Of a stretch of 9,324 nt of DNA, positions 1 to 9,324 are shown in pieces. Position 1 is the first letter of the stretch, and each line of letters starts with the position of its first letter. The stretch spans positions 1 through 9,324 of the forward strand of contig JAAUPT010000039.1 in the NCBI GenBank assembly GCA_012032965.1, read 5' to 3'. The stretch is from Nitrospira sp. (GTDB taxonomy: Bacteria > Nitrospirota > Nitrospiria > Nitrospirales > Nitrospiraceae). A model generated the notes under the pieces. It was not told the origin of the DNA. It searched no databases and saw nothing but the letters and a program-made list of their open reading frames with translations. The position numbers and the translations under genes are program-made.

Positions 1-268
1 CCGATTGGCGGCATCGGCGTCAATGATACGTTCGCTCGACCTGGCGGGTGCCGAGTAATCGATACAGTGGGACCAGAGCTGGGGAATAACGAGTGCCATT
101 GCCCGTGACACCAAACCCATCCAGCTGTATCTCAGCTAGGGGAGATCACTGCGCCTGTTGCCTTGAACTTGCTGGATCCATTTGTTATCCTTCGCCCGCC
201 TTTCACATTCATATTCGTAGTTAACGTAACTATCCAACATCTGCGCAATTTTCGGAGGAATACCTACC
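1..268. other. Left-edge region upstream of purH, no assignable gene
   Basis: No gene can be named here. Three short frames stay open at the left edge: + strand frame 1 to a TGA at 106-108, + strand frame 2 to a TAA at 56-58 (its last residues read LDLAGAE), and a minus-strand frame starting at an ATG at 120 and running out of the window. Any of these could be the end or start of a neighbouring gene, and I cannot choose between them. The part from about 110 to 268 reads as purH leader. It has a short inverted repeat AGCTG/CAGCT around 123-137, a promoter candidate at 163-191, an inverted repeat at 218-232, and a good ribosome binding site at 254-260. Confidence 0.3.
163..191 (+). promoter_or_regulatory. 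Candidate sigma-70 type promoter for purH
   Basis: The sequence shows TTGAAC (163-168), a 17-base spacer and TATCCT (186-191), each matching four of six bases of the -35 and -10 consensus. Transcription would start near 198, giving a leader of about 70 bases before purH. Between it and the gene lies the inverted repeat TAGTTA-ACG-TAACTA (218-232), a possible operator or small hairpin. The match is moderate, so this is a suggestion only. Confidence 0.35.
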
Positions 269-1822
269 ATGGCTGGCATCAAGCGGGCGCTCATCAGCGT
301 TTCGGACAAGACTGGGGTTATCGAGATGGCCAAAGGGCTGGAAGCGCTTGGCGCGGAAATCCTGTCCACTGGGGGAACGGCAAAGGCGTTGCGCGACGCC
401 GGTGTGAAAGTCACGGATGTGGCTGCCTATACGGGTTCGCCCGAGATTCTCGACGGACGAGTCAAAACGTTGCACCCAAAGATTCATGGAGGCTTACTCG
501 GCCGGCGTTCGCTCACAACTCATGTCGAACAGATGAACCAACATGGAATCGGTCCCATCGATGTCGTCGTGGTGAACCTCTACCCATTCGAAGCCACGAT
601 TGCGAAGCCCGATTGTCGGTTCGAGGATGCCATCGAAAATATTGACATCGGCGGACCGTCGATGCTGCGATCGGCCGCAAAGAATCACGACGATGTCCTG
701 GTCGTTGTGGATCCAGCCGACTATTCGAGGGTCCTTGATGCGGTGAAGGGCCATACGGCGACCGCGGCGCTACGTCGTGAGCTGGCGATGAAGGTGTTTC
801 AACATACCGCGCGCTATGACGGATTGATTGCCGCCTATTTGGAAAAGCAGGCGGGCAGTAAGGAAGTGAAGTTTCCGAAAGTGTTGTCTTTACAGTTTGA
901 ATTGGCTGAAACACTTCGTTATGGAGAGAACCCTCACCAGCAGGGCGCCTTTTACCGTGAACTCCACAGCAACGAGCCAGCCGTTTCACGAGGCAAGATC
1001 CTTCATGGGAAGGCCATGTCCTACAATAATTTTCTCGACGCGAATTCCGCGTTGGAGTTGGTCAAGGAATACGGCGAGACGACCGTTGCGATCATCAAAC
1101 ACAACAATCCTTGCGGTGTGGCGCTCGGCGAAACGCCGGTGGAAGCGTATGTCAAAGCACGAGCGACGGATCCCGTGTCGGCCTTCGGCGGTGTGATCGC
1201 CTTCAACCGGATCGTCGATATCGCAGCGGCCAAAGAAATCACCTCCACATTCGTTGAGGTTGTCATCGCTCCCGGGTTTGCTGAGGATGCGTTGGCCGAA
1301 CTCAAGCGAAAGAAGGACCTCCGCCTCCTGGATGTGGGACCATTGACAAAGGTGAAACAGGAAGGCTTTGATCTGAAAAAACTCGTTGGTGGGTTGATCG
1401 TGCAAGATCGCGATCTCGGCGTCTTGACGGATCTTCGCGCGCTTTCCGTGCCGACCATTCGTAAGCCGACCGATGAGGAATATGCCGCCTGTGCGTTTGC
1501 ATGGAAAGTCTGCAAACACGTCAAGTCCAACGCCATCATCTATGCTAAATCAGGCCAGACGGTCGGCATTGGAGCAGGACAGATGAGCCGGGTGGATTCC
1601 GTCAAGTTAGCAGCGATGAAGGCCCAAATGCCGGTGAAGGGCTGTGTCATGGCTTCGGACGCGTTCTTTCCGTTCCGTGACGGTCTCGATGCCGCTGCCG
1701 AAGTTGGTATTACGACCGTCATTCAACCGGGTGGATCGATTAGGGATTCCGAAGTGGTGAAGGCGGCAGATGAACATGGGATGGCGATGATTTTGACGGG
1801 TATGCGCCACTTCCGCCATTAA
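269..1822 (+). CDS. purH: Bifunctional AICAR transformylase / IMP cyclohydrolase
   Basis: PurH is a cytoplasmic enzyme that performs the last two steps of de novo purine synthesis. It formylates AICAR with 10-formyl-tetrahydrofolate to FAICAR, then closes the ring to IMP. The 517-residue length is typical of bacterial PurH. Residues 1 to about 150 form the MGS-like IMP cyclohydrolase domain, with ISVSDKTG (9-16), LSTGGTA (32-38) and [14 protein letters not shown] (62-75). The transformylase part follows, with LRYGENPHQ (216-224), [11 protein letters not shown] (251-261), the catalytic pair Lys277-His278 in IIKHNNPCG, and [10 protein letters not shown] (299-308). The C-terminus is GMRHFRH, as is usual for the family. 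The ATG at 269 is supported by GGAGGAA (254-260) eight bases upstream and by homology starting at once after it. purD follows on the same strand, but 212 bases containing a repeat element separate them. Confidence 0.98.
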
Positions 1823-1825
1823 TTC

Positions 1826-1941
1826 GGATGCTGAAACAGGCCCCCAACTTCGTTCTCAGTCTTCGAGACCTCAACGCACAGCCAGTACGCTTCGGGCCTC
1901 TCACTCCTTGTGGCCTCGATAGATAACCTGTTCGAGCATCC
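1826..1941. repeat. MITE/REP-like intergenic element with terminal inverted repeats
   Basis: This 116-bp non-coding element lies between purH and purD, starting four bases after the purH stop. Its ends are imperfect inverted repeats. The left end, GGATGCTGAAACAGG (1826-1840), matches the reverse complement of the right end, CCTGTTCGAGCATCC (1927-1941), at 13 of 15 positions. Inside, TCGAGACC near the left and GGCCTCGA near the right can also pair with one mismatch, so single strands could form a long hairpin. No open frame and no transposase are present. From memory, Nitrospira genomes carry many intergenic repeats with the same GGATGCTGAAA...GAGCATCC ends, but I could not search for copies. 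No clear target-site duplication is visible. It could act as a transcript-stabilising or terminating structure between the two pur genes. Confidence 0.7.
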
Positions 1942-2034
1942 TCTTGCCAATAAATAGCTCGGCAGGCTGGTGCCAGTAGTTTTGCGATAGTCCATTTAAG
2001 GCTACCTGCCTTCCTTTAGAGTGAAAGAGAACTC

Positions 2035-3309
2035 ATGAAGATTCTTGTTGTCGGCAGTGGCGGGCGTGAGCACGCGATCATCTGGAAGCTCGCCCAGAGT
2101 CCACGCAAGCCAGCACTCTATTGTGCCCCGGGCAATACGGGAATCGCGTCGTTGTCGACCTGTATACCGATCACAGCGGACGATATTGCCGGGCTAAAAG
2201 AGTTCGCACTTCAAGAGAAGATTGACCTGACGGTGGTTGGGCCTGAGGTGCCACTTGCATTGGGCATCGTTGACGAATTCCGCAAAGCCAGGCTCAGAAT
2301 TTTTGGGCCGACCAAGAATGCGGCTCGTTTGGAGGCCAGCAAAATATTTTCAAAAGATGTCATGGCCCAAGCTAAAATCAGAACTGCTCAGGCTGAGAGT
2401 TTCGAGAAGGTCGCCGACGCGCTCGCCTATGTTGAGCGTCATGAGCTACCGGTCGTGATCAAGGCAGACGGGCTGGCACAGGGGAAAGGGGTTATCATCG
2501 CGACCACTCGCGATCAAGCTCGGCAGGCAATCGTGGATGCCATGGAGAAGGCGGTCTTTGGCCAAGCCGGGAAGCAGGTCTTGATCGAACAGTTTCTCGA
2601 CGGCGAAGAACTGACGATCATGGCCTTCACAGATGGTCTGACGGTGGTACCGATGCCGGCGGCGCAAGATCATAAGCGTGTCGGTGATGGTGATACGGGG
2701 TTGAATACGGGAGGCATGGGTGCCTATTGCCCTGCTCCACTCGGAACGTCTGAGCTCCATGCTCTGGTTACGCGTGAGGTCCTACAGCCGATGGTCGATG
2801 CAATGGCCCGTCTTGGTTCTCCATTTCAGGGTGTCCTTTATGCGGGATTGATGGTCGTCAACGGAACCCCGTACGTGTTGGAGTTCAATGCTCGTATGGG
2901 TGATCCTGAAACTCAGGTGGTGTTGCCGTTGCTCAAAACCGATCTACTTGATGTCTTCGACGCTGTGGTCGAACATCGGCTGGACCAACTCGTGGTTGAA
3001 TGGCATCGCGATGCTACGGTGTGTGTCATCATGGCGTCGGGAGGCTATCCCGGTTCCTACCAGCAGGGGGTGCCGATTCACGGCCTCTCCTTAGCCATCC
3101 CCGAATCAGCGACCTCCATGGTATTTCATGCGGGGACGACTCAGCGAGGGAATGAGATCGTCACGGCGGGAGGCCGGGTGCTCGGCATTGTAGGTCGAGG
3201 ACCAACTCTTTTGGACGCACAGCGCGAGGCCTATCTGGTTGTGAGAACGATCTCCTTCGAAGGCTGTTATTTCCGGACGGATATCGCACATCGCGCGCTC
3301 GAGACGTAG
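2035..3309 (+). CDS. purD: Phosphoribosylamine-glycine ligase (GAR synthetase)
   Basis: PurD is an ATP-grasp enzyme of de novo purine synthesis. It joins glycine to 5-phosphoribosylamine with ATP to make glycinamide ribonucleotide. The 424-residue length fits monofunctional bacterial PurD. The N-terminal domain opens with [14 protein letters not shown] (1-14), and PGNTG follows at 32-36. The ATP-grasp region includes [11 protein letters not shown] (143-153), IEQFLDGEE (184-192), the segment [19 protein letters not shown] (213-231), and the GARS signature [11 protein letters not shown] (284-294), whose acidic and Asn residues bind metal. The ATG at 2035 coincides with the conserved N-terminus, although the upstream purine-rich stretch (GTGAAAGAGAAC) is only a weak ribosome binding site. 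It lies downstream of purH and may share its transcript, read through the repeat element; no convincing separate promoter is visible in the gap. Confidence 0.98.
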
Positions 3310-3355
3310 GATGGATCCGATTCACACCCCCCAAACATTCGCCCTTGACCAACCC

Positions 3356-3374
3356 TGATTGCAACGCGCAATCA
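3356..3374. terminator. Small hairpin downstream of purD
   Basis: TGATTGC (3356-3362) and GCAATCA (3368-3374) form a perfect 7-bp stem around the five-base loop AACGC, 47 bases after the purD stop. The bases that follow (TCCTCTCT) are pyrimidine-rich but not a T run, so this is not a canonical rho-independent terminator. It may mark the 3' end of the purD transcript. Confidence 0.35.
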
Positions 3375-3448
3375 TCCTCTCTCCCAGTGCGCCTTTCATG
3401 TATGCGCCAGCTCTAGATCCGAATAGCCGGAGCCGATCTTCTGCGATG

Positions 3449-3491
3449 TCGATCGCGATCGATCTGTTACAATAGCGTCATTCGATTGACG
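3449..3491 (+). promoter_or_regulatory. Palindrome plus -10-like box upstream of the lipoprotein gene
   Basis: TCGATCGCGATCGA (3449-3462) is a perfect 14-bp palindrome. It lies just upstream of TACAAT (3468-3473), which matches the -10 consensus at five of six bases. No good -35 box is seen at the usual spacing, where the palindrome's left edge falls. A further inverted repeat, CGTCA-N6-TGACG (3476-3491), covers the expected start of transcription. The arrangement suggests a regulated promoter, perhaps activator- or repressor-bound, for the gene starting at 3568; this is inference from symmetry alone. Confidence 0.35.
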
Positions 3492-3567
3492 AGAGGACAG
3501 TTGTAAGACTTACTTGTCGAAGCTGCAGCGTGTCTCAATCCAGACCGACGAAAGGGGAGCGAAGATT

Positions 3568-3996
3568 ATGACGATGAGCGGTCATTCGATGCGGGAAGTC
3601 TACACGGTTGTCGGGTGTGGTCTCCTATTGAGCCTCGTTGGGTGTGACTATTGGCCGCCAGCCTTACAGGCTCAGATCGAACAAATGCGCTCGGAAACGC
3701 AAACGCTGACGATGGAAAAAGCTCAATTGCAAGCGCAAGTCTCAGACTTATCGAAGGCCAAGCAAGAAGCCCAGAGTCAGATGGATGAACTGGGTCGGAT
3801 GAATCGCGAGAAAACCGCGATGATTATGAGCCTCCAGAAACAGTTGGATGTGGTTCGTGCGAAAACTTTGAAGTCGAGGTCTTCCAAATCAGCGCAGCGG
3901 AAAATACCAGCGAAATTGAAGGCACATCCTGCCCCCAAGGTACCACCTGCCAAAAAGGTGTGTCGAAAGGGGTCGGTGTGCGGTAGCTCGGTTTAA
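3568..3996 (+). CDS. Small coiled-coil lipoprotein of unknown function
   Basis: I do not recognise a named family. The 142-residue product has a short N-region with one Arg, a hydrophobic stretch (VYTVVGCGLLLSLVGC, 11-26) ending in a lipobox LVGC, and therefore a predicted lipid-modified Cys26. Residue +2 is Asp, which in enteric bacteria keeps lipoproteins in the inner membrane; whether that rule holds here is unknown. From about residue 33 to 98 the chain is rich in Gln, Glu, Lys, Leu and Met with heptad-like spacing, so a long coiled coil is likely. The last 40 residues are basic and Pro/Lys-rich, with two cysteines (132 and 138). I chose the ATG at 3568 because AAGGGGAG lies about ten bases upstream and it gives a normal signal peptide. 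An in-frame TTG at 3514 would add 18 polar residues. The gene ends four bases from the convergent fmdB-family gene. Confidence 0.75.
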   Translation: MTMSGHSMREVYTVVGCGLLLSLVGCDYWPPALQAQIEQMRSETQTLTMEKAQLQAQVSDLSKAKQEAQSQMDELGRMNREKTAMIMSLQKQLDVVRAKTLKSRSSKSAQRKIPAKLKAHPAPKVPPAKKVCRKGSVCGSSV

Positions 3997-4000
3997 GCCA

Positions 4001-4369
4001 TTACGATGAGGAGGAGGTCGTTGTCGTGCTAGGTGCAGCGGTCGATGAACTGGTGGATGCTGTTGCGGGTGCCGCTGCTGGAGTCGGAGTCGAGGGTGTT
4101 GCGCTTGCTGCAGCAGGGGCTGCTGCTTCTTTTTTCTCGCCCGTTCCCGTTTTACCGGTCTCACTACCTGAGCTTGATGGAGGTTTCAGTTTCTCGGAGT
4201 AGTCGGTCACATACCAGCCACTTCCCTTGAACATAATTCCCGGCGAGGAAATCAGTCGCTGCACAGCCTTCCCACATCGTTCGCAGGTAGAGAGGGGATC
4301 GTCTTTCATGCTCTGTTTCACTTCAAAGCGGTAGGCGCACCCTTCACATTGATATTCGTAAATTGGCAC
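4001..4369 (-). CDS. FmdB-family zinc-ribbon protein with low-complexity tail
   Basis: This belongs to the FmdB family of putative regulatory proteins, named after a gene of the Methylophilus amide/urea regulon; the biochemical role of most members is unknown. The N-terminus MPIYEYQCEGCAYRFE is the family hallmark. Cys8, Cys11, Cys29 and Cys32 form a CXXC...CXXC zinc ribbon, and SPGIMFKGSGWYVTDY (43-58) is the second conserved block. Residues from about 65 to 122 are almost wholly Ser, Thr, Ala, Pro, Gly and Lys, ending in SSSS, and are presumably disordered. The start is a GTG at 4369, chosen because MPIYEY follows directly and GGGAGG lies about seven bases upstream. It is the last gene of the leftward rsmD-coaD-aminotransferase group, 47 bases after the aminotransferase stop, and converges on the lipoprotein gene. 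Confidence 0.9.
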   Translation of the reverse strand: MPIYEYQCEGCAYRFEVKQSMKDDPLSTCERCGKAVQRLISSPGIMFKGSGWYVTDYSEKLKPPSSSGSETGKTGTGEKKEAAAPAAASATPSTPTPAAAPATASTSSSTAAPSTTTTSSSS

Positions 4370-4416
4370 GGTTTCCCTCCCTTGTGCGCTGCTCTTTCAT
4401 CAGATCGTGGTAAAGG

Positions 4417-5610
4417 TCACGTTAATTTCGCGAACGCCTGTTCGAGGCGTTCAAGACCTCTGATTATGTTCGTCATACTGGTGGCATATGATAGTCGAAG
4501 GTGCTCTCTGCTGCCAAACGGCTCACCAGGTACCGTTGCGATTTGGGCCTCGTTCAGCAGGTACTGAGCCACATCGTTCGGAGTCTTTAGCATACCTGAT
4601 GGCCCCTGTTTTCCCAATACTCCTTTGATATTGGGAAAAGCGTAGAATGCCCCCTGTGGCATCCGACACGAGACACCGGAGATCTTGTTCAACCCATTGA
4701 CGATTGTGGTCCGACGACGGGAAAATTCTTCCACCATTTTTACGGTGAACGGGTCTCCTAGGCGTAATGCGGCAACTGCCGCTTTCTGGGCGATCGAGCA
4801 CGGATTGGAAGTACTCTGGCTTTGGATGTTGGCCATCGCCGTGATCAGTTCCTTAGGCCCGGCCGCGTATCCGATCCTCCATCCAGTCATGGCATAGGCT
4901 TTTGAGACCCCGTTGATAATGACCGTTCGAGCAGCAATTTCCGATCCCAACGAGGCAATGCTGACATGGATCGCGTCATCGTACAGGACTTTTTCGTAGA
5001 TCTCGTCGGAAATCACAAGAAGATCGTGTCGTACCGCAACCGATGCAATCTCCTCAAGCGTCGCGCGATCATAGGCTGTCCCGGTCGGGTTGCACGGACT
5101 GTTGACGATAATAGCTTTGGTTCGAGGAGTGATGAGTCGTTCCAGGGCAGCGGCATGGACCGCGTACCCTTCTTCTTCATTGGTCGCTAACAGGATCGGC
5201 GTGGCATCGTTCAAGAGCGCTTGGTCAGAATAGGACACCCAGTAGGGGATTGGGATGATGATCTCGTCGCCCGCTTCGAGTAGAGCTTCAGCCAGGTTGT
5301 ACAACGAGTGTTTGGCCCCGCAGGAAACCAGGACCTGAGATTTGTCATAGCGCACGCCAACCTCGGCCTGTAGCTTGTCTGCGATCGCCCCGCGCAACTC
5401 ATCGATTCCGGACGAAGGCGTATATTTGGTAAATCCACTGCGAATCGCATCTTCGGCTGCAGCCTTGACCGGCTCAGGTGTGTCAAAATCTGGTTCACCA
5501 GCCGAAAAGTCGATAACATCCACCCCTTGTGCCGCCATGGCTTTGGCTTTGGCAGCCATCGCAAGAGTAGGGGAGGGCGCAATGCGGCTGACACGGGCAG
5601 CAAGCTTCAT
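4417..5610 (-). CDS. Class I pyridoxal-phosphate aspartate-type aminotransferase
   Basis: This fold-type I PLP enzyme of the aspartate aminotransferase family most likely interconverts aspartate plus 2-oxoglutarate with oxaloacetate plus glutamate. The 397-residue length is normal. Recognisable parts are AGEPDFDTP (37-45), TKYTPSSGI (61-69), NSPCNPTG (170-177, Asn174), SDEIYE (201-206, Asp202 and Tyr205), the PLP-binding Lys237 in NGVSKAYAMTGWRIGY, Arg245, and Arg372 in LRLSYATS, which should bind the substrate alpha-carboxylate. The segment SCGAKHSLYNL resembles the Thermus-type (subgroup Ib) enzyme, in which the lysine at this place (Lys100 here) helps recognise the acidic substrate. Such enzymes may also use prephenate, so a dual aspartate/prephenate role is possible. 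The ATG overlaps the coaD stop (ATGA), and AGGAG lies nine bases upstream. Coupling to coaD fits aspartate as the source of beta-alanine for CoA, which is inference. Confidence 0.92.
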   Translation of the reverse strand: MKLAARVSRIAPSPTLAMAAKAKAMAAQGVDVIDFSAGEPDFDTPEPVKAAAEDAIRSGFTKYTPSSGIDELRGAIADKLQAEVGVRYDKSQVLVSCGAKHSLYNLAEALLEAGDEIIIPIPYWVSYSDQALLNDATPILLATNEEEGYAVHAAALERLITPRTKAIIVNSPCNPTGTAYDRATLEEIASVAVRHDLLVISDEIYEKVLYDDAIHVSIASLGSEIAARTVIINGVSKAYAMTGWRIGYAAGPKELITAMANIQSQSTSNPCSIAQKAAVAALRLGDPFTVKMVEEFSRRRTTIVNGLNKISGVSCRMPQGAFYAFPNIKGVLGKQGPSGMLKTPNDVAQYLLNEAQIATVPGEPFGSREHLRLSYATSMTNIIRGLERLEQAFAKLT

Positions 5611-6095
5611 AGTTTGAGACTCCTGATGCGATCGTGTAATCGGCGAGCAACTTCTGGGTGGAGAAACTCTGATAAGTTTCCCCCGTGGCGCGCGACCTCC
5701 TTGATGATGGTCGACGATAAATACGAATATTCCTCGCTTGGCATTAGGAACACGGTCTCGACGGCCTTGGCAAGTTTTCGATTGATCAACGCCATCTGAA
5801 ATTCGTGTTCGAAATCTGAAATGGCCCGCAGGCCTCGGATGATCGCATGGGCACCGGACCGTTCGACATAATCCACCAATAGTCCCTCAAACGGCGTGAC
5901 GTCGACTTGATCGAGATCCTTCATCACCAACTTCACCATGTCAAGACGTTCCGGCAGATTGAAGAGGGGATACTTAGAAGGATTTGGAGCCACGGCCACG
6001 ACCACCTTATCGAACACACGGAGGCTGCGGGTGATGATATCTGTGTGGCCATGGGTAACAGGATCGAATGTACCGGGGTAGATACCGATCTTCAT
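5607..6095 (-). CDS. coaD: Pantetheine-phosphate adenylyltransferase (PPAT)
   Basis: CoaD transfers AMP from ATP to 4'-phosphopantetheine, giving dephospho-CoA, the penultimate step of coenzyme A synthesis in the cytoplasm. The 162 residues match the usual length of about 160. The nucleotidyltransferase signature is at the start: MKIGIYPGTFDP (1-12) followed by THGH (14-17). Other family blocks are VAPNPSKYPLF (35-45), LPERLDM (47-53), IIRGLRAISDFEHEFQMA (85-102, Arg88), and YSYLSSTIIKEVA (123-135), the ISSTxIR-like motif. The frame is open further upstream, but the ATG at 6095 is chosen because the conserved MKIGIYPGTFDP begins there and it overlaps the rsmD stop as ATGA. No clear ribosome binding site is seen, so translation probably depends on coupling to rsmD. 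The coaD stop in turn overlaps the aminotransferase start. The rsmD-coaD order is common in bacteria. Confidence 0.97.
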   Translation of the reverse strand: MKIGIYPGTFDPVTHGHTDIITRSLRVFDKVVVAVAPNPSKYPLFNLPERLDMVKLVMKDLDQVDVTPFEGLLVDYVERSGAHAIIRGLRAISDFEHEFQMALINRKLAKAVETVFLMPSEEYSYLSSTIIKEVARHGGNLSEFLHPEVARRLHDRIRSLKL

Positions 6096-6664
6096 AGTTG
6101 CACAGCATTGGGATTGGAGTAGACAGAGAGGGTGGTATCTCCGTATCGATACCGACGCAGAAACTGCGTGGGTCCTAGGGACGCGGGTAAGGTGGTTCTG
6201 GTGGCGTGCTCGATAACCAGCCATGAGTCGACATTAAATAGCTGGTCGGTCTGTGGTTTGGAAAGTAATGCTGAAAATTCTTGGGCGTCAGAAGAATAGG
6301 GAGGGTCGGCAAAAACGATATTGTAGGGACCGTTCCATTGAGCAGGGTTGTCCAGAAAATCTTCGACGGCTTGAGCTCGCATAGAAAGGGCATCACCCAT
6401 CTGACAGATCTGGACATTTTGCTGAATGAGCTTCAAGGCTTCTCTGTCAGATTCGACGGAGGTAACATGAGTCGCTCCTCGGCTCACGGCTTCTATTCCC
6501 ACGGCACCCGTTCCGGCATAGAGGTCTAAAAAGCGACTATTGGTCAGCCGATTCCTGAGAATTGAAAACAGAGCCTCTCGGACCCGATCTGAGGTTGGAC
6601 GAAGATGATCTGCCCGTGGTGCGCTGAGTCGCCGACCTCTATGGGTACCCGCGATTACACGCAT
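6092..6664 (-). CDS. rsmD: 16S rRNA (guanine(966)-N(2))-methyltransferase
   Basis: RsmD methylates N2 of G966 in 16S rRNA (E. coli numbering) using S-adenosylmethionine. The N-terminal MRVIAGTHRGRRL and LRPTSDRVREALF are typical of the family. The SAM-binding glycine-rich loop is LDLYAGTGAVGIEA (46-59), and the catalytic DPPY motif lies at 120-123. The 190-residue length is close to the E. coli protein. An ATG at 6679 would add five residues; I prefer the ATG at 6664 because GAGGT lies about eight bases upstream and the family N-terminus starts there. It is the first gene of the leftward operon, with a promoter candidate just upstream. Its stop overlaps the coaD start by four bases. Confidence 0.95.
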   Translation of the reverse strand: MRVIAGTHRGRRLSAPRADHLRPTSDRVREALFSILRNRLTNSRFLDLYAGTGAVGIEAVSRGATHVTSVESDREALKLIQQNVQICQMGDALSMRAQAVEDFLDNPAQWNGPYNIVFADPPYSSDAQEFSALLSKPQTDQLFNVDSWLVIEHATRTTLPASLGPTQFLRRYRYGDTTLSVYSNPNAVQL

Positions 6665-6691
6665 ACCTGCCAACCTCATCTCAAGTGAGGG

Positions 6692-6721
6692 ACTCTAACA
6701 TAGCGTTTTTGAAAGGGTCAA
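6692..6721 (-). promoter_or_regulatory. Candidate promoter for the rsmD-coaD operon
   Basis: Read on the minus strand, TTGACC (6716-6721, five of six -35 bases) is followed after 18 bases by TAGAGT (6692-6697, four of six -10 bases). Transcription would start near 6685, giving a leader of about 20 bases before rsmD. Position and spacing fit well, although the -10 box is imperfect. Confidence 0.45.
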
Positions 6722-6805
6722 GGAATGCAGGATGAATAAAAAGAGCAACAATTACGATGTAAATGGGGAATGAGAAATGCGCCGCGAGTGCATGGAAGAA
6801 CTCCC

Positions 6806-6844
6806 AGTCCTCTTTTGACCGTACAGATCGAAGAGGACTATAAT
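6806..6844 (+). promoter_or_regulatory. Near-consensus rightward promoter inside a perfect 9-bp dyad
   Basis: TTGACC (6815-6820) and a perfect TATAAT (6839-6844) are separated by 18 bases on the + strand, the best sigma-70 type promoter in the window. It sits in a perfect inverted repeat: AGTCCTCTT (6806-6814) ends directly before the -35 box, and AAGAGGACT (6831-6839) ends on the first base of the -10 box. This symmetry suggests a binding site for a dimeric regulator, or a DNA hairpin. Transcription would begin near 6851. No gene starts soon after it on this strand. The first downstream + strand gene is radC, more than 400 bases away. Confidence 0.6.
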
Positions 6845-6850
6845 GTCGTG

Positions 6851-6936
6851 ACTTGTAGCGCGAGGGAAGGGTCGTATCTGAACGGTCAACCGTTCCCCTC
6901 GCGGGCTCGGATGCCGAGCCCGAAAAAGAGAGAAAT
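6851..6936 (+). ncRNA. Candidate structured small RNA
   Basis: Directly after the strong + strand promoter the sequence can fold compactly. CGAGGG (6861-6866) pairs with CCCTCG (6896-6901). Stacked on it is GAACGG-TCAA-CCGTTC (6880-6895), a 6-bp stem with a four-base loop, leaving a 13-base bulge (6867-6879). It abuts a perfect 9-bp hairpin CGGGCTCGG-ATG-CCGAGCCCG (6902-6922), followed by an A/G-rich stretch. There is no coding frame. I cannot place it in a known RNA family; it does not look like tRNA, tmRNA, 4.5S or 6S RNA. The 3' end is uncertain because no T run follows the last hairpin, so the RNA may run on, antisense to the zinc-ribbon gene at 6937-7110. The same helices could instead sit in the 3' end of that gene's minus-strand transcript. 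Confidence 0.4.
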
Positions 6937-7110
6937 CTAGCGAGTGGCTACTGGGTGAGAATCTCGAGCTGCTAGGCTCTTTCTGCGATTATTGGAAATC
7001 GTGCGATCAATAATGGCTCCGCAATTGATGCATTTCCATGCGTAGAAGACGAGAAAGAAATCCGAAAACCGCTCTAACATCATCATACCCTTACACTTCG
7101 GACATTCCAT
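6937..7110 (-). CDS. Small double-CXXC zinc-ribbon protein (57 residues)
   Basis: This short gene has an ATG at 7110 and a TAG at 6937-6939. Its protein begins MECPKCKGMMMLERF and continues with a segment WKCINCGAIIDR. Cys3, Cys6, Cys27 and Cys30 form two CXXC knuckles, a zinc-ribbon arrangement, separated by a hydrophobic middle part (FSDFFLVFYAW, 15-25). The C-terminal 22 residues are basic and polar (NNRRKS, AARDSH). AGGAGG lies five bases upstream of the ATG, an excellent ribosome binding site, which with the cysteine pattern argues for a real gene. The function is unknown; a nucleic-acid or protein-binding role is possible. From memory, short proteins of this kind are common in Nitrospira. 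It lies upstream of rsmD on the same strand, but strong hairpins and a gap of 272 bases separate them. A rightward promoter at 6815-6844 points into its 3' end. Confidence 0.75.
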   Translation of the reverse strand: MECPKCKGMMMLERFSDFFLVFYAWKCINCGAIIDRTISNNRRKSLAARDSHPVATR

Positions 7111-7242
7111 TGACTCCTCCTCGGGTGGCGACGTGCATTGCTGGGGGCGAACTTAAGCAAGAGCTGCACCAATTTGTCACTTGTCGGTATTTCAATAGTT
7201 TACGAGCTACGTATTTATCTTAGGTCGGCAATATCGGCTTCT

Positions 7243-7278
7243 TTGACGGTACAAAAGCGTCCGGTCCGTCAATTTTTT
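7243..7278 (+). terminator. Hairpin plus T6 run just upstream of radC
   Basis: TTGACGG (7243-7249) pairs perfectly with CCGTCAA (7266-7272) around a 16-base loop, and six T residues follow (7273-7278), ending 16 bases before the radC ATG. This has the form of a rho-independent terminator for + strand transcripts arriving from the left, such as one begun near 6851. The stem is short and the loop long, so efficiency is doubtful. TTGACG could alternatively be a -35 box, but no good -10 box follows. Because the hairpin lies upstream of the radC ribosome binding region, an attenuator role is also conceivable. Confidence 0.35.
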
Positions 7279-7294
7279 GTCCAGTCGAGGATGT

Positions 7295-8023
7295 ATGGCG
7301 GATACGAAAGACCACAGGAGAGGGATTGCCCACTGGCCTCAAACCGAACGTCCTCGTGAACGTCTTCTTGCAAAGGGCTCAGACGCCCTGTCCGATGCGC
7401 ATCTTCTCGCAATCCTGCTGAGGACCGGGAGACGCGATTCGTCCGCCGTACAAGTCGCCATCGAACTCCTTGATCGAATGGGAGGCTTGGGTGGGATCGC
7501 AGCATGTGGCATTGAAGAGCTCTGTGCCATCCCGGGGGTCGGTCTGGCAAAGGCGGCCCAGCTCAAGGCCGCACTGGCATTGGGAAGGCGTTCTCTGGCG
7601 ATTCCACTTTCAACCGGCACACGCATTTCGTCGAGCGCCAATCTCTTTAAACATTTCCACCCGGCTCTCCGCGATGTGAAACACGAACTCTTCAAGGTGG
7701 TCTTGCTTGATGCAAAAAATACTGTTCTCAAAGAAACGACGGTTTCAGAAGGGAGTCTGACACTCAGCATCGTCCATCCACGAGAAGTCTTCACTCTTGC
7801 GGTCCGCGAATCGGCTGCTGCAGTCATCTTTGTTCATAATCATCCAAGCGGAGATCCCACTCCCAGTCAGGAGGATCGACGATTGACCGATCGATTAGTG
7901 GCGGCTGGCAGACTTTTGGGGATACGCGTGTTGGACCACCTCATCATTGGGGATAGTCGGTATGTAAGTTTTGCTGACGAAGGGTGGTTGAGTGGATTCC
8001 GGGAGGATAACGAAAACATTTGA
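7295..8023 (+). CDS. radC: RadC-family JAB1/MPN+ metalloprotein
   Basis: RadC proteins were once thought to act in DNA repair, but their exact role is not settled; the fold is that of a JAMM metalloprotease or deubiquitinase. The 242 residues are slightly longer than E. coli RadC. The N-terminal block WPQTERPRERLL (14-25) and LSDAHLLAILLRTG (32-45) is characteristic. A helix-hairpin-helix segment follows (LCAIPGVGLAKAAQLKAAL, 77-95). The MPN+ domain occupies the C-terminal half and carries an intact metal motif HNHPSGDPTPSQED, with His181, His183, Ser191 and Asp194. The ATG at 7295 is preferred, with GAGGA a few bases upstream; an in-frame TTG at 7277 lies in the T run of a terminator-like hairpin and is unlikely. 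The EF-G-like gene follows on the same strand after 83 bases. Confidence 0.95.
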   Translation: MADTKDHRRGIAHWPQTERPRERLLAKGSDALSDAHLLAILLRTGRRDSSAVQVAIELLDRMGGLGGIAACGIEELCAIPGVGLAKAAQLKAALALGRRSLAIPLSTGTRISSSANLFKHFHPALRDVKHELFKVVLLDAKNTVLKETTVSEGSLTLSIVHPREVFTLAVRESAAAVIFVHNHPSGDPTPSQEDRRLTDRLVAAGRLLGIRVLDHLIIGDSRYVSFADEGWLSGFREDNENI

Positions 8024-8060
8024 AGCGATGATTAATCGAAATCCAAATCCTTGTGCTGCG

Positions 8061-8078
8061 AGGAGGTTGATGGCCTAA
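8061..8078 (+). other. Ribosome binding site with a two-codon open frame
   Basis: In the radC to EF-G-like gap, a perfect AGGAGG (8061-8066) is followed three bases later by ATG GCC TAA (8070-8078), a complete frame of two codons. The true EF-G-like start lies 28 bases beyond this stop and has its own CGGAGGG site (8094-8100), six bases before its ATG. It may be a chance purine run, a ribosome standby site, or a minimal upstream open frame that affects translation of the GTPase. Confidence 0.25.
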
Positions 8079-8106
8079 ACTACCATTCTCAAACGGAGGG
8101 TATGCC

Positions 8107-9324
8107 ATGGAAACAGCCCATGTGGAGCCCGTCAGAAATGTGGCGATCGTGTCCAGCGTCGGTGCCGGGAAAACTTCGCTTTGCGAGGCCTTGTTGTATG
8201 TAGGTGGAGTGATTCCCTCCCTCGGTTCCGTGACGGAGGGAACCACCGTCTCGGATTTTGAGCCGGAAGAACTCCGTCATCGTACCTCGACCAGTACCAG
8301 CCTTCTGCAGTTCAACTGGAATCAGACTCAGATCAATTTGATCGATACTCCCGGGGCACTCGATCTTCTTGGCGAACCGATGGCTGCGCTACGGGCCGTC
8401 GACGCGGTCATCATTGTCGTGGGGGGAAGCAGCGGAGTGAAGACCGAGCTGGCCCGGCTCTGGTCGAAGATCGAAGAATTGAGCCTGCCCTGTCTTCTGT
8501 TCGTCAATGGGCTCGATAAGGAAGGCACTTCCTTCGAGAATGCGCTGGAAACCTGCCGCCAATACTTTGGTCCCACTCCAATCCCTGTGACTGTGCCGCT
8601 CAATCAAGGGACGACGATCGACGGGGTCTATGATATCCGGCATGAGAAACTGATTCGATCTGGGCCAACGTCGTTGAAAGTCGAGCAGGTCTGGCCTGGT
8701 GGTGATCTGCAGGAGTTTTCGCGAGAAGCGCGCAAGCAGTTGGTGGAGGCAGTGGCTGAGACTGACGAATCTCTTCTGGAGCGATACCTCTCTCAGGGTG
8801 ATTTGACACAAAAAGAACTCTTGGACGGTCTGCGACGCGGTACTCAACTGCGGCGATTCCTTCCAGCCTATGCCGGATCTGCCGTTCAGAATGTGGGAGT
8901 CTGGTCGCTCTTGGATGCCATTGTGATGTTGCTGCCCTTGCCAATCGAGCGTGGTGCGGAGCATCCATGGCATGGGATTCACCCCGAGACCAACGGAACA
9001 TGCGAACGGAAGGGGAGTGCAGAAGAGCCCCTTTCAGCGTATGTCTTTAAGACCCTCATCGATCCGTTCGTTGGACGACTCTCCTATTGTCGTGTGTTGT
9101 CAGGAACTGTTCAGGCCGATGCGACAGGGTGGAATGCGTCAAGACAGGTGCGGGAGAAGCTCGGTCATTTCTATAAGGTGTTGGGCAAACGTCACGTGTC
9201 TGTTGAGTCCGCTAAAGCAGGAGACATCGTGGCGATCGGGAAACTCAAGGACACCCAGACCGGTGACACGTTGTGTCAGGAGAGCGCCCCTATCTGCTTT
9301 GCAGGGCTTGGAATGCCGAAGCCA
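8107..9324 (+). CDS. Elongation factor G-like GTPase, divergent paralogue (3' end outside window)
   Basis: The first 406 codons are present, with no stop before the window edge. The layout follows EF-G: a G domain of about 280 residues, then domain II from about 305 with the strong match YVFKTLIDPFVGRLSYCRVLSG. The P-loop is intact (GAGKTS, 19-24), but the preceding His-Ile-Asp of EF-G is SSV. The G2 region reads RTSTSTS instead of RGIT. G3 is IDTPGALD (79-86), so the catalytic histidine after DTPG is Ala84. G4 reads FVNGLD (132-137), so the NKxD lysine is Gly135. These changes place it with the EF-G-like paralogues (the group containing mycobacterial FusA2) rather than housekeeping EF-G, and suggest slow or altered GTP hydrolysis. 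The role of these paralogues is poorly known. The ATG at 8107 has CGGAGGG six bases upstream; an ATG at 8102 is in another frame. Confidence 0.88.
   Translation, partial: METAHVEPVRNVAIVSSVGAGKTSLCEALLYVGGVIPSLGSVTEGTTVSDFEPEELRHRTSTSTSLLQFNWNQTQINLIDTPGALDLLGEPMAALRAVDAVIIVVGGSSGVKTELARLWSKIEELSLPCLLFVNGLDKEGTSFENALETCRQYFGPTPIPVTVPLNQGTTIDGVYDIRHEKLIRSGPTSLKVEQVWPGGDLQEFSREARKQLVEAVAETDESLLERYLSQGDLTQKELLDGLRRGTQLRRFLPAYAGSAVQNVGVWSLLDAIVMLLPLPIERGAEHPWHGIHPETNGTCERKGSAEEPLSAYVFKTLIDPFVGRLSYCRVLSGTVQADATGWNASRQVREKLGHFYKVLGKRHVSVESAKAGDIVAIGKLKDTQTGDTLCQESAPICFAGLGMPKP

Follow-up and report, generated by a model that had tools for sequence, protein, structure and literature searches.

A conserved sigma70-type promoter between rsmD and radC in Nitrospira and its relatives, possibly that of a radC leader opposed to a zinc-ribbon gene

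Features of the locus

The window analysed here comprises positions 1-9,324 of a contig of a Nitrospira sp. (GenBank:JAAUPT010000039.1), in which a strongly folded stretch at positions 6851-6936 lies directly behind a promoter-like site, termed P+. This raises the question of whether the stretch is a small RNA in its own right or the beginning of a longer transcript that serves one of its neighbours, namely rsmD (minus strand), a gene for a 57-aa zinc-ribbon protein (minus strand) and radC (plus strand). An open reading frame at 6770-6940 (plus strand) is also present in the list of open reading frames. The features to which the text refers are as follows.

6692..6721, minus strand: rsmD promoter-like site, 9/12, divergent from P+
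6815..6844, plus strand: P+, a sigma70-type promoter TTGACC-18-TATAAT, 11/12, predicted start at about 6851
6851..6936, plus strand: variable, folded beginning of the predicted leader, from fold computation and comparison of relatives
6860..6902, plus strand: outer stem of 7 bp (6860-6866/6896-6902), enclosing the bulge 6867-6879 and the hairpin 6880-6895
6867..6879, plus strand: one-sided 13-nt bulge between the outer stem and the tetraloop hairpin
6880..6885/6890..6895, plus strand: tetraloop hairpin of 6 bp with loop TCAA, stacked on the outer stem
6903..6921, unstranded: 8-bp hairpin (6903-6910/6914-6921), lying 3′ of the zinc-ribbon gene
6937..7110, minus strand: zinc-ribbon gene, 57 aa, convergent with P+ and multi-copy in the genus
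7155..7172, minus strand: sigma54-like promoter of the zinc-ribbon gene, TTGGTGCAGCTCTTGCTT, by sequence pattern
7243..7278, unstranded: inverted repeat TTGACGG/CCGTCAA followed by T6, just 5′ of radC and terminator-like on the plus strand
7295..8023, plus strand: radC, the proposed target of P+

Fold of the stretch and searches for known RNAs

A sequence-only reading of this DNA had described three stacked helices, all pairs of which were found to exist, with the drawn fold (-36.2 kcal/mol) lying within 1 kcal/mol of the minimum (-37.1 kcal/mol). The stretch 6851-6936 had a z of -3.3 on the plus strand, none of 200 shuffles being equally stable, and of -3.8 on the minus strand, with 2 of 200 shuffles equally stable. 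Pair probabilities were 0.94-1.0 for the 8-bp hairpin and 0.16 for the tetraloop hairpin, which is thus a minority conformer. What had been taken for a perfect 9-bp hairpin retained 8 bp, and the possible ninth pair (C6902-G6922) is in competition with the outer stem.

Known housekeeping RNAs had been judged not to fit. The Rfam search of the window gave no match in the folded region (the only match in the window at E<=5, at 2086-2138 with E 1.3, was below its own cut-off) and the search for tRNA and tmRNA found none; an Rfam search of 20 related loci also gave no match. The radC RNA motif (RF01754), likewise a candidate structured RNA and bearing the name of radC, differed in that the window did not match it, nor did any site in the same genome exceed its cut-off; a table row in PMC2864571 assigns it to Proteobacteria. 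Although the short G+C-rich hairpin past a stop codon is reminiscent of an intrinsic terminator, the region 6600-7400 contained no terminator-like site on either strand at a loop limit of 8, and thus no terminator-defined 3′ end of the candidate small RNA there. The titles and abstract openings listed by literature searches mentioned no Nitrospira small RNA at such a locus.

Conservation of the promoter and of the sequence behind it

Via rsmD, 107 family loci were oriented from 105/162 rsmD-positive family genomes (two loci apiece from G087 and G092), and the zinc-ribbon gene was locatable in 105 of them, the other two (L074 and L121) being contig-end pieces. The pattern TTGAC-17/18/19-TATA.T was present between rsmD and the zinc-ribbon stop codon in 103 of these 105 loci, the exceptions being L092 (from G081, which has no radC) and L101 (from G055). 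In 101 of the 102 loci holding both P+ and radC the promoter scored at least 10/12 (shuffle mean 7.2), and the remaining one has a 19-nt spacer, which is outside the range of the promoter scan. Scanning of 800 bases of the window revealed 2 promoter-like sites, as opposed to 0.6 in shuffles. The earlier proposal that the stretch has its own promoter was thus substantiated. P+ is genuine and kept throughout the family, which makes a plus-strand transcript from it probable.

The region from P+ to the zinc-ribbon stop codon, in contrast to its promoter, varied from 62 to 165 nt (median 100) in the family loci and was poorly alignable. Its mean column identity was 0.48 within the genus (0.43 overall), lower than the 0.59 (0.52 overall) of the segment preceding P+, which includes the rsmD promoter. 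Leaders folded with a mean z of -1.00 on the plus strand (103 loci), versus -0.01 for the upstream control (102 loci), and of -1.16 on the minus strand (103 loci). Among 7 close orthologues, pairing in the outer stem and in the 8-bp hairpin reached 91.4%, far more than the 22-51% of slid versions; the tetraloop hairpin was intact in the window only and was not kept in the other 6. The search for compensatory changes in relatives, by which the small RNA was to be judged, yielded no excess in these 7 orthologues: double changes amounted to 2 cells, a value reached by 192 of 500 shuffles, and to 2 when counted as pairs, reached by 168 of 500. On the plus strand of the close set, G-U outnumbered A-C by 12 to 4, a weak lean to this strand. 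Consensus stems were obtained in most subclades on both strands, with z-scores that are inflated, as column shuffles lose dinucleotides and the clades were drawn by eye.

Structure in the leader exists, yet it lacks depth and clear strand specificity. A conserved small RNA found no support: double changes in the close set stayed within the shuffle range, the tetraloop hairpin was not kept in the 6 other close orthologues, and leader identity was no better than that of the upstream segment, in addition to the missing Rfam match in the region and terminator-like site nearby. By these comparisons the conserved unit is P+, not the RNA behind it, and the folded stretch is probably a variable, fast-changing leader start joined to a 3′ hairpin of the zinc-ribbon gene. 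A plausible small-RNA call made from a single sequence was thus altered by comparing relatives, in which the promoter was kept and the fold was not.

Possible association of P+ with radC

Zinc-ribbon copies away from radC were sampled at 33 places (20 hand-picked among the matches listed and 13 from a hairpin-biased list), and P+ was found at none of them, no site reaching 10/12 within 190 nt and the best being 9/12. Outgroup loci were hand-picked among the matches listed. In sister family f2, rsmD adjoins radC with no zinc-ribbon gene between them, and 12 of the 19 loci had a promoter of at least 10/12 between the two genes, about 30-90 nt ahead of a likely radC ATG; the other 7 had no 10/12 site there. 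One locus of f4 had a 10/12 site before radC. In f3, where the zinc-ribbon gene is present, a 9/12 site occupied the same place in 1 of 3 loci, and the other 2 had no 9/12 site between rsmD and the zinc-ribbon gene. None of 4 loci of f9 had such a site ahead of the zinc-ribbon gene. It was also noticed that these f9 loci (L159, L160, L173 and L174), which belong to another order-level lineage, retain the zinc-ribbon gene and radC as a pair at a place apart from rsmD, and that, by eye, a hairpin between A- and T-runs stands behind the zinc-ribbon gene.

Among the matches listed, four family genomes had no radC. G173 had an intact zinc-ribbon gene and no P+, and in G081 (L185 and L191), a genus member of 2.0 Mb, the zinc-ribbon gene carried two stops and P+ was decayed, as judged by eye against L036; both genomes favour radC as the likely owner of P+. 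G161 and G132, with no zinc-ribbon gene at the locus, kept P+ at 10/12 about 75 nt ahead of other convergent genes, with -10 boxes (TACAAT and TATTAT) unseen in the other 103 P+, and these promoters may either be remnants or speak for an independent RNA. Because of the f2 arrangement, the absence of P+ from all 33 paralogues and its loss or decay in 2 of the 4 radC-less relatives, P+ more likely belongs to radC.

The zinc-ribbon gene and the gap to radC

The 57-aa zinc-ribbon protein was present in at least 77 of 79 genus genomes, with up to 6 copies among the matches listed, and reached no Pfam or NCBIfam family at cut-off. Upstream of its gene lies an element that resembles the sigma54 promoter consensus. 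On sequence grounds alone, its strict form was present at 90 of the 103 loci and at 28 of the 33 paralogues, and its loose form at 100 of the 103 loci and at all 33 paralogues, with 0-1.2 in shuffles. The 8-bp hairpin, GGGCTCGG-NNN-CCGAGCCC, also stands behind the stop codon in 13 paralogues that lack P+ and had been selected by this hairpin, but in 0 of 20 paralogues chosen independently of it. It marks one subset of the 3′ ends of zinc-ribbon genes.

In the window, the inverted repeat followed by T6 has a stem of 7 and a loop of 16, and its arms occur at zinc-ribbon paralogues too. Two elements were confined to the radC-linked copy: GTACAAAA was located before radC in 77 of 103 radC-linked copies, and T6 in 69 of 103, neither being present at any of the 33 paralogues. 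They may represent a radC promoter of a different class or some terminator-like control. In the gap between the zinc-ribbon gene and radC, no sigma70-type site on the plus strand rose above the control (mean best score 7.2, control 7.5), and terminator-like sites were in excess, being present in 52 of 101 loci (shuffles 23.0). The excess of such sites was slight from P+ to the zinc-ribbon start (35 of 101, shuffles 24.7), and on the minus strand they were rarer than in shuffles (6 of 101, shuffles 16.0).

Proposed arrangement and alternatives

We propose that P+ may be the sigma70 promoter of a radC leader of ~440 nt, antisense to the sigma54-like zinc-ribbon unit in an excludon-like manner. 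The leader RNA would start at P+, with the folded stretch as its first ~85 nt, cross the convergent zinc-ribbon gene in antisense and arrive at radC ~440 nt downstream. The zinc-ribbon unit, having its own sigma54-like promoter, and the radC unit would collide head-on: with the sigma54 side on, radC would be lowered, and with it off, the leader would serve as an antisense RNA against the zinc-ribbon message. Observed are P+ with its position and conservation, the gene order, the arrangement in f2 and the sigma54-like element, whereas transcription from P+ into radC and mutual regulation of the two units are inferred. We consider the chances of this reading to be evenly balanced and no better, because of G161 and G132, which keep P+ without radC, and of GTACAAAA and T6, which are peculiar to the radC-linked copy and possibly form a radC promoter of another class. 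Also against it are the 7 of 19 f2 loci without a 10/12 site, the 2 of 3 f3 loci without a 9/12 site, and the excess of terminator-like sites in the gap (52/101) and, slightly, before the zinc-ribbon start (35/101). Its extension to a family-wide head-on switch, in which a radC leader from a housekeeping promoter and a sigma54-controlled zinc-ribbon gene would each silence the other, is tentative, and we would sooner doubt than accept it.

The retention of P+ at 10/12 in G161 and G132, which have neither radC nor the zinc-ribbon gene there, would suit an independent small RNA of ~75-90 nt running from P+ to near the zinc-ribbon stop codon, as would the folding of leaders better than the control (z -1.00 versus -0.01), the consensus stems in several subclades (with inflated z-scores) and the 12-to-4 ratio of G-U to A-C on the plus strand of the close set. 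Only its promoter and position would be conserved, since the sequence would evolve so fast. We nevertheless regard such an RNA as unlikely, given that double changes stayed within the shuffle range, that leader identity in the genus (0.48) was below that upstream (0.59), that the minus strand folded equally well (mean z -1.16), that 6600-7400 had no terminator-like site, and that P+ was missing from G173 and decayed in G081.

P+ might also drive a dedicated antisense RNA of ~425 nt over the whole zinc-ribbon gene, ending at 7243-7278, which would silence that gene only and leave radC with a promoter elsewhere. The 33 sampled paralogues and the intact copy of G173 manage without P+, however, and f2 retains the promoter although the zinc-ribbon gene is missing, so that this explanation is quite improbable despite the terminator-like repeat with T6 (stem 7, loop 16), the excess in the gap (52/101 versus 23.0) and the specificity of T6 for the radC-linked copy; the repeat arms, being at paralogues too, are there more likely a protein site. 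We give very little credit to an element of the minus strand only, i.e., a 3′ end of the zinc-ribbon mRNA concerned with stability or Rho-dependent ending, to which P+ would be unrelated. It is in keeping with the 8-bp hairpin past the stop codon in 13 paralogues that have no P+ and with a minus strand that folds as well as the plus strand, but those 13 were hairpin-selected while 0 of 20 others carry it, terminator-like sites on the minus strand were rarer than in shuffles (6/101 versus 16.0), and P+ is left unexplained.

As for the proposed radC leader, a review on excludons and noncontiguous operons (PMC7154746) gives overlap by a long 5′ UTR as one layout. The likeness to an excludon is that a gene's transcript would overlap, in antisense, an opposed neighbour (PMC7154746) with a promoter of its own, here the sigma54-like element; the differences are that the arrangement and this element are predictions from sequence only, and that sigma70-type and sigma54-like promoters face each other. 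A noncontiguous operon in the strict sense differs further, as beyond the opposing gene there are only a promoter and a leader and no gene. If the proposed reading is true, opposed sigma70-type and sigma54-like units would have stayed put over ~100 sampled loci, mostly of uncultured Nitrospira relatives, an excludon-type arrangement would become testable across a whole family, and an unnamed multi-copy zinc-ribbon protein would gain its first regulatory context.

Repeated sequences

A dispersed hairpin repeat was considered as well and rejected, as the pattern (<=2 mismatches) was found at one place in the genome of origin, which is 68% complete. Upstream of several zinc-ribbon paralogues, farther out than their control region (e.g., in L012, L017 and L023), GGGGTCGGGAGTCTTT-like strings were seen to recur, and our guess is that these may be mobile-element ends.
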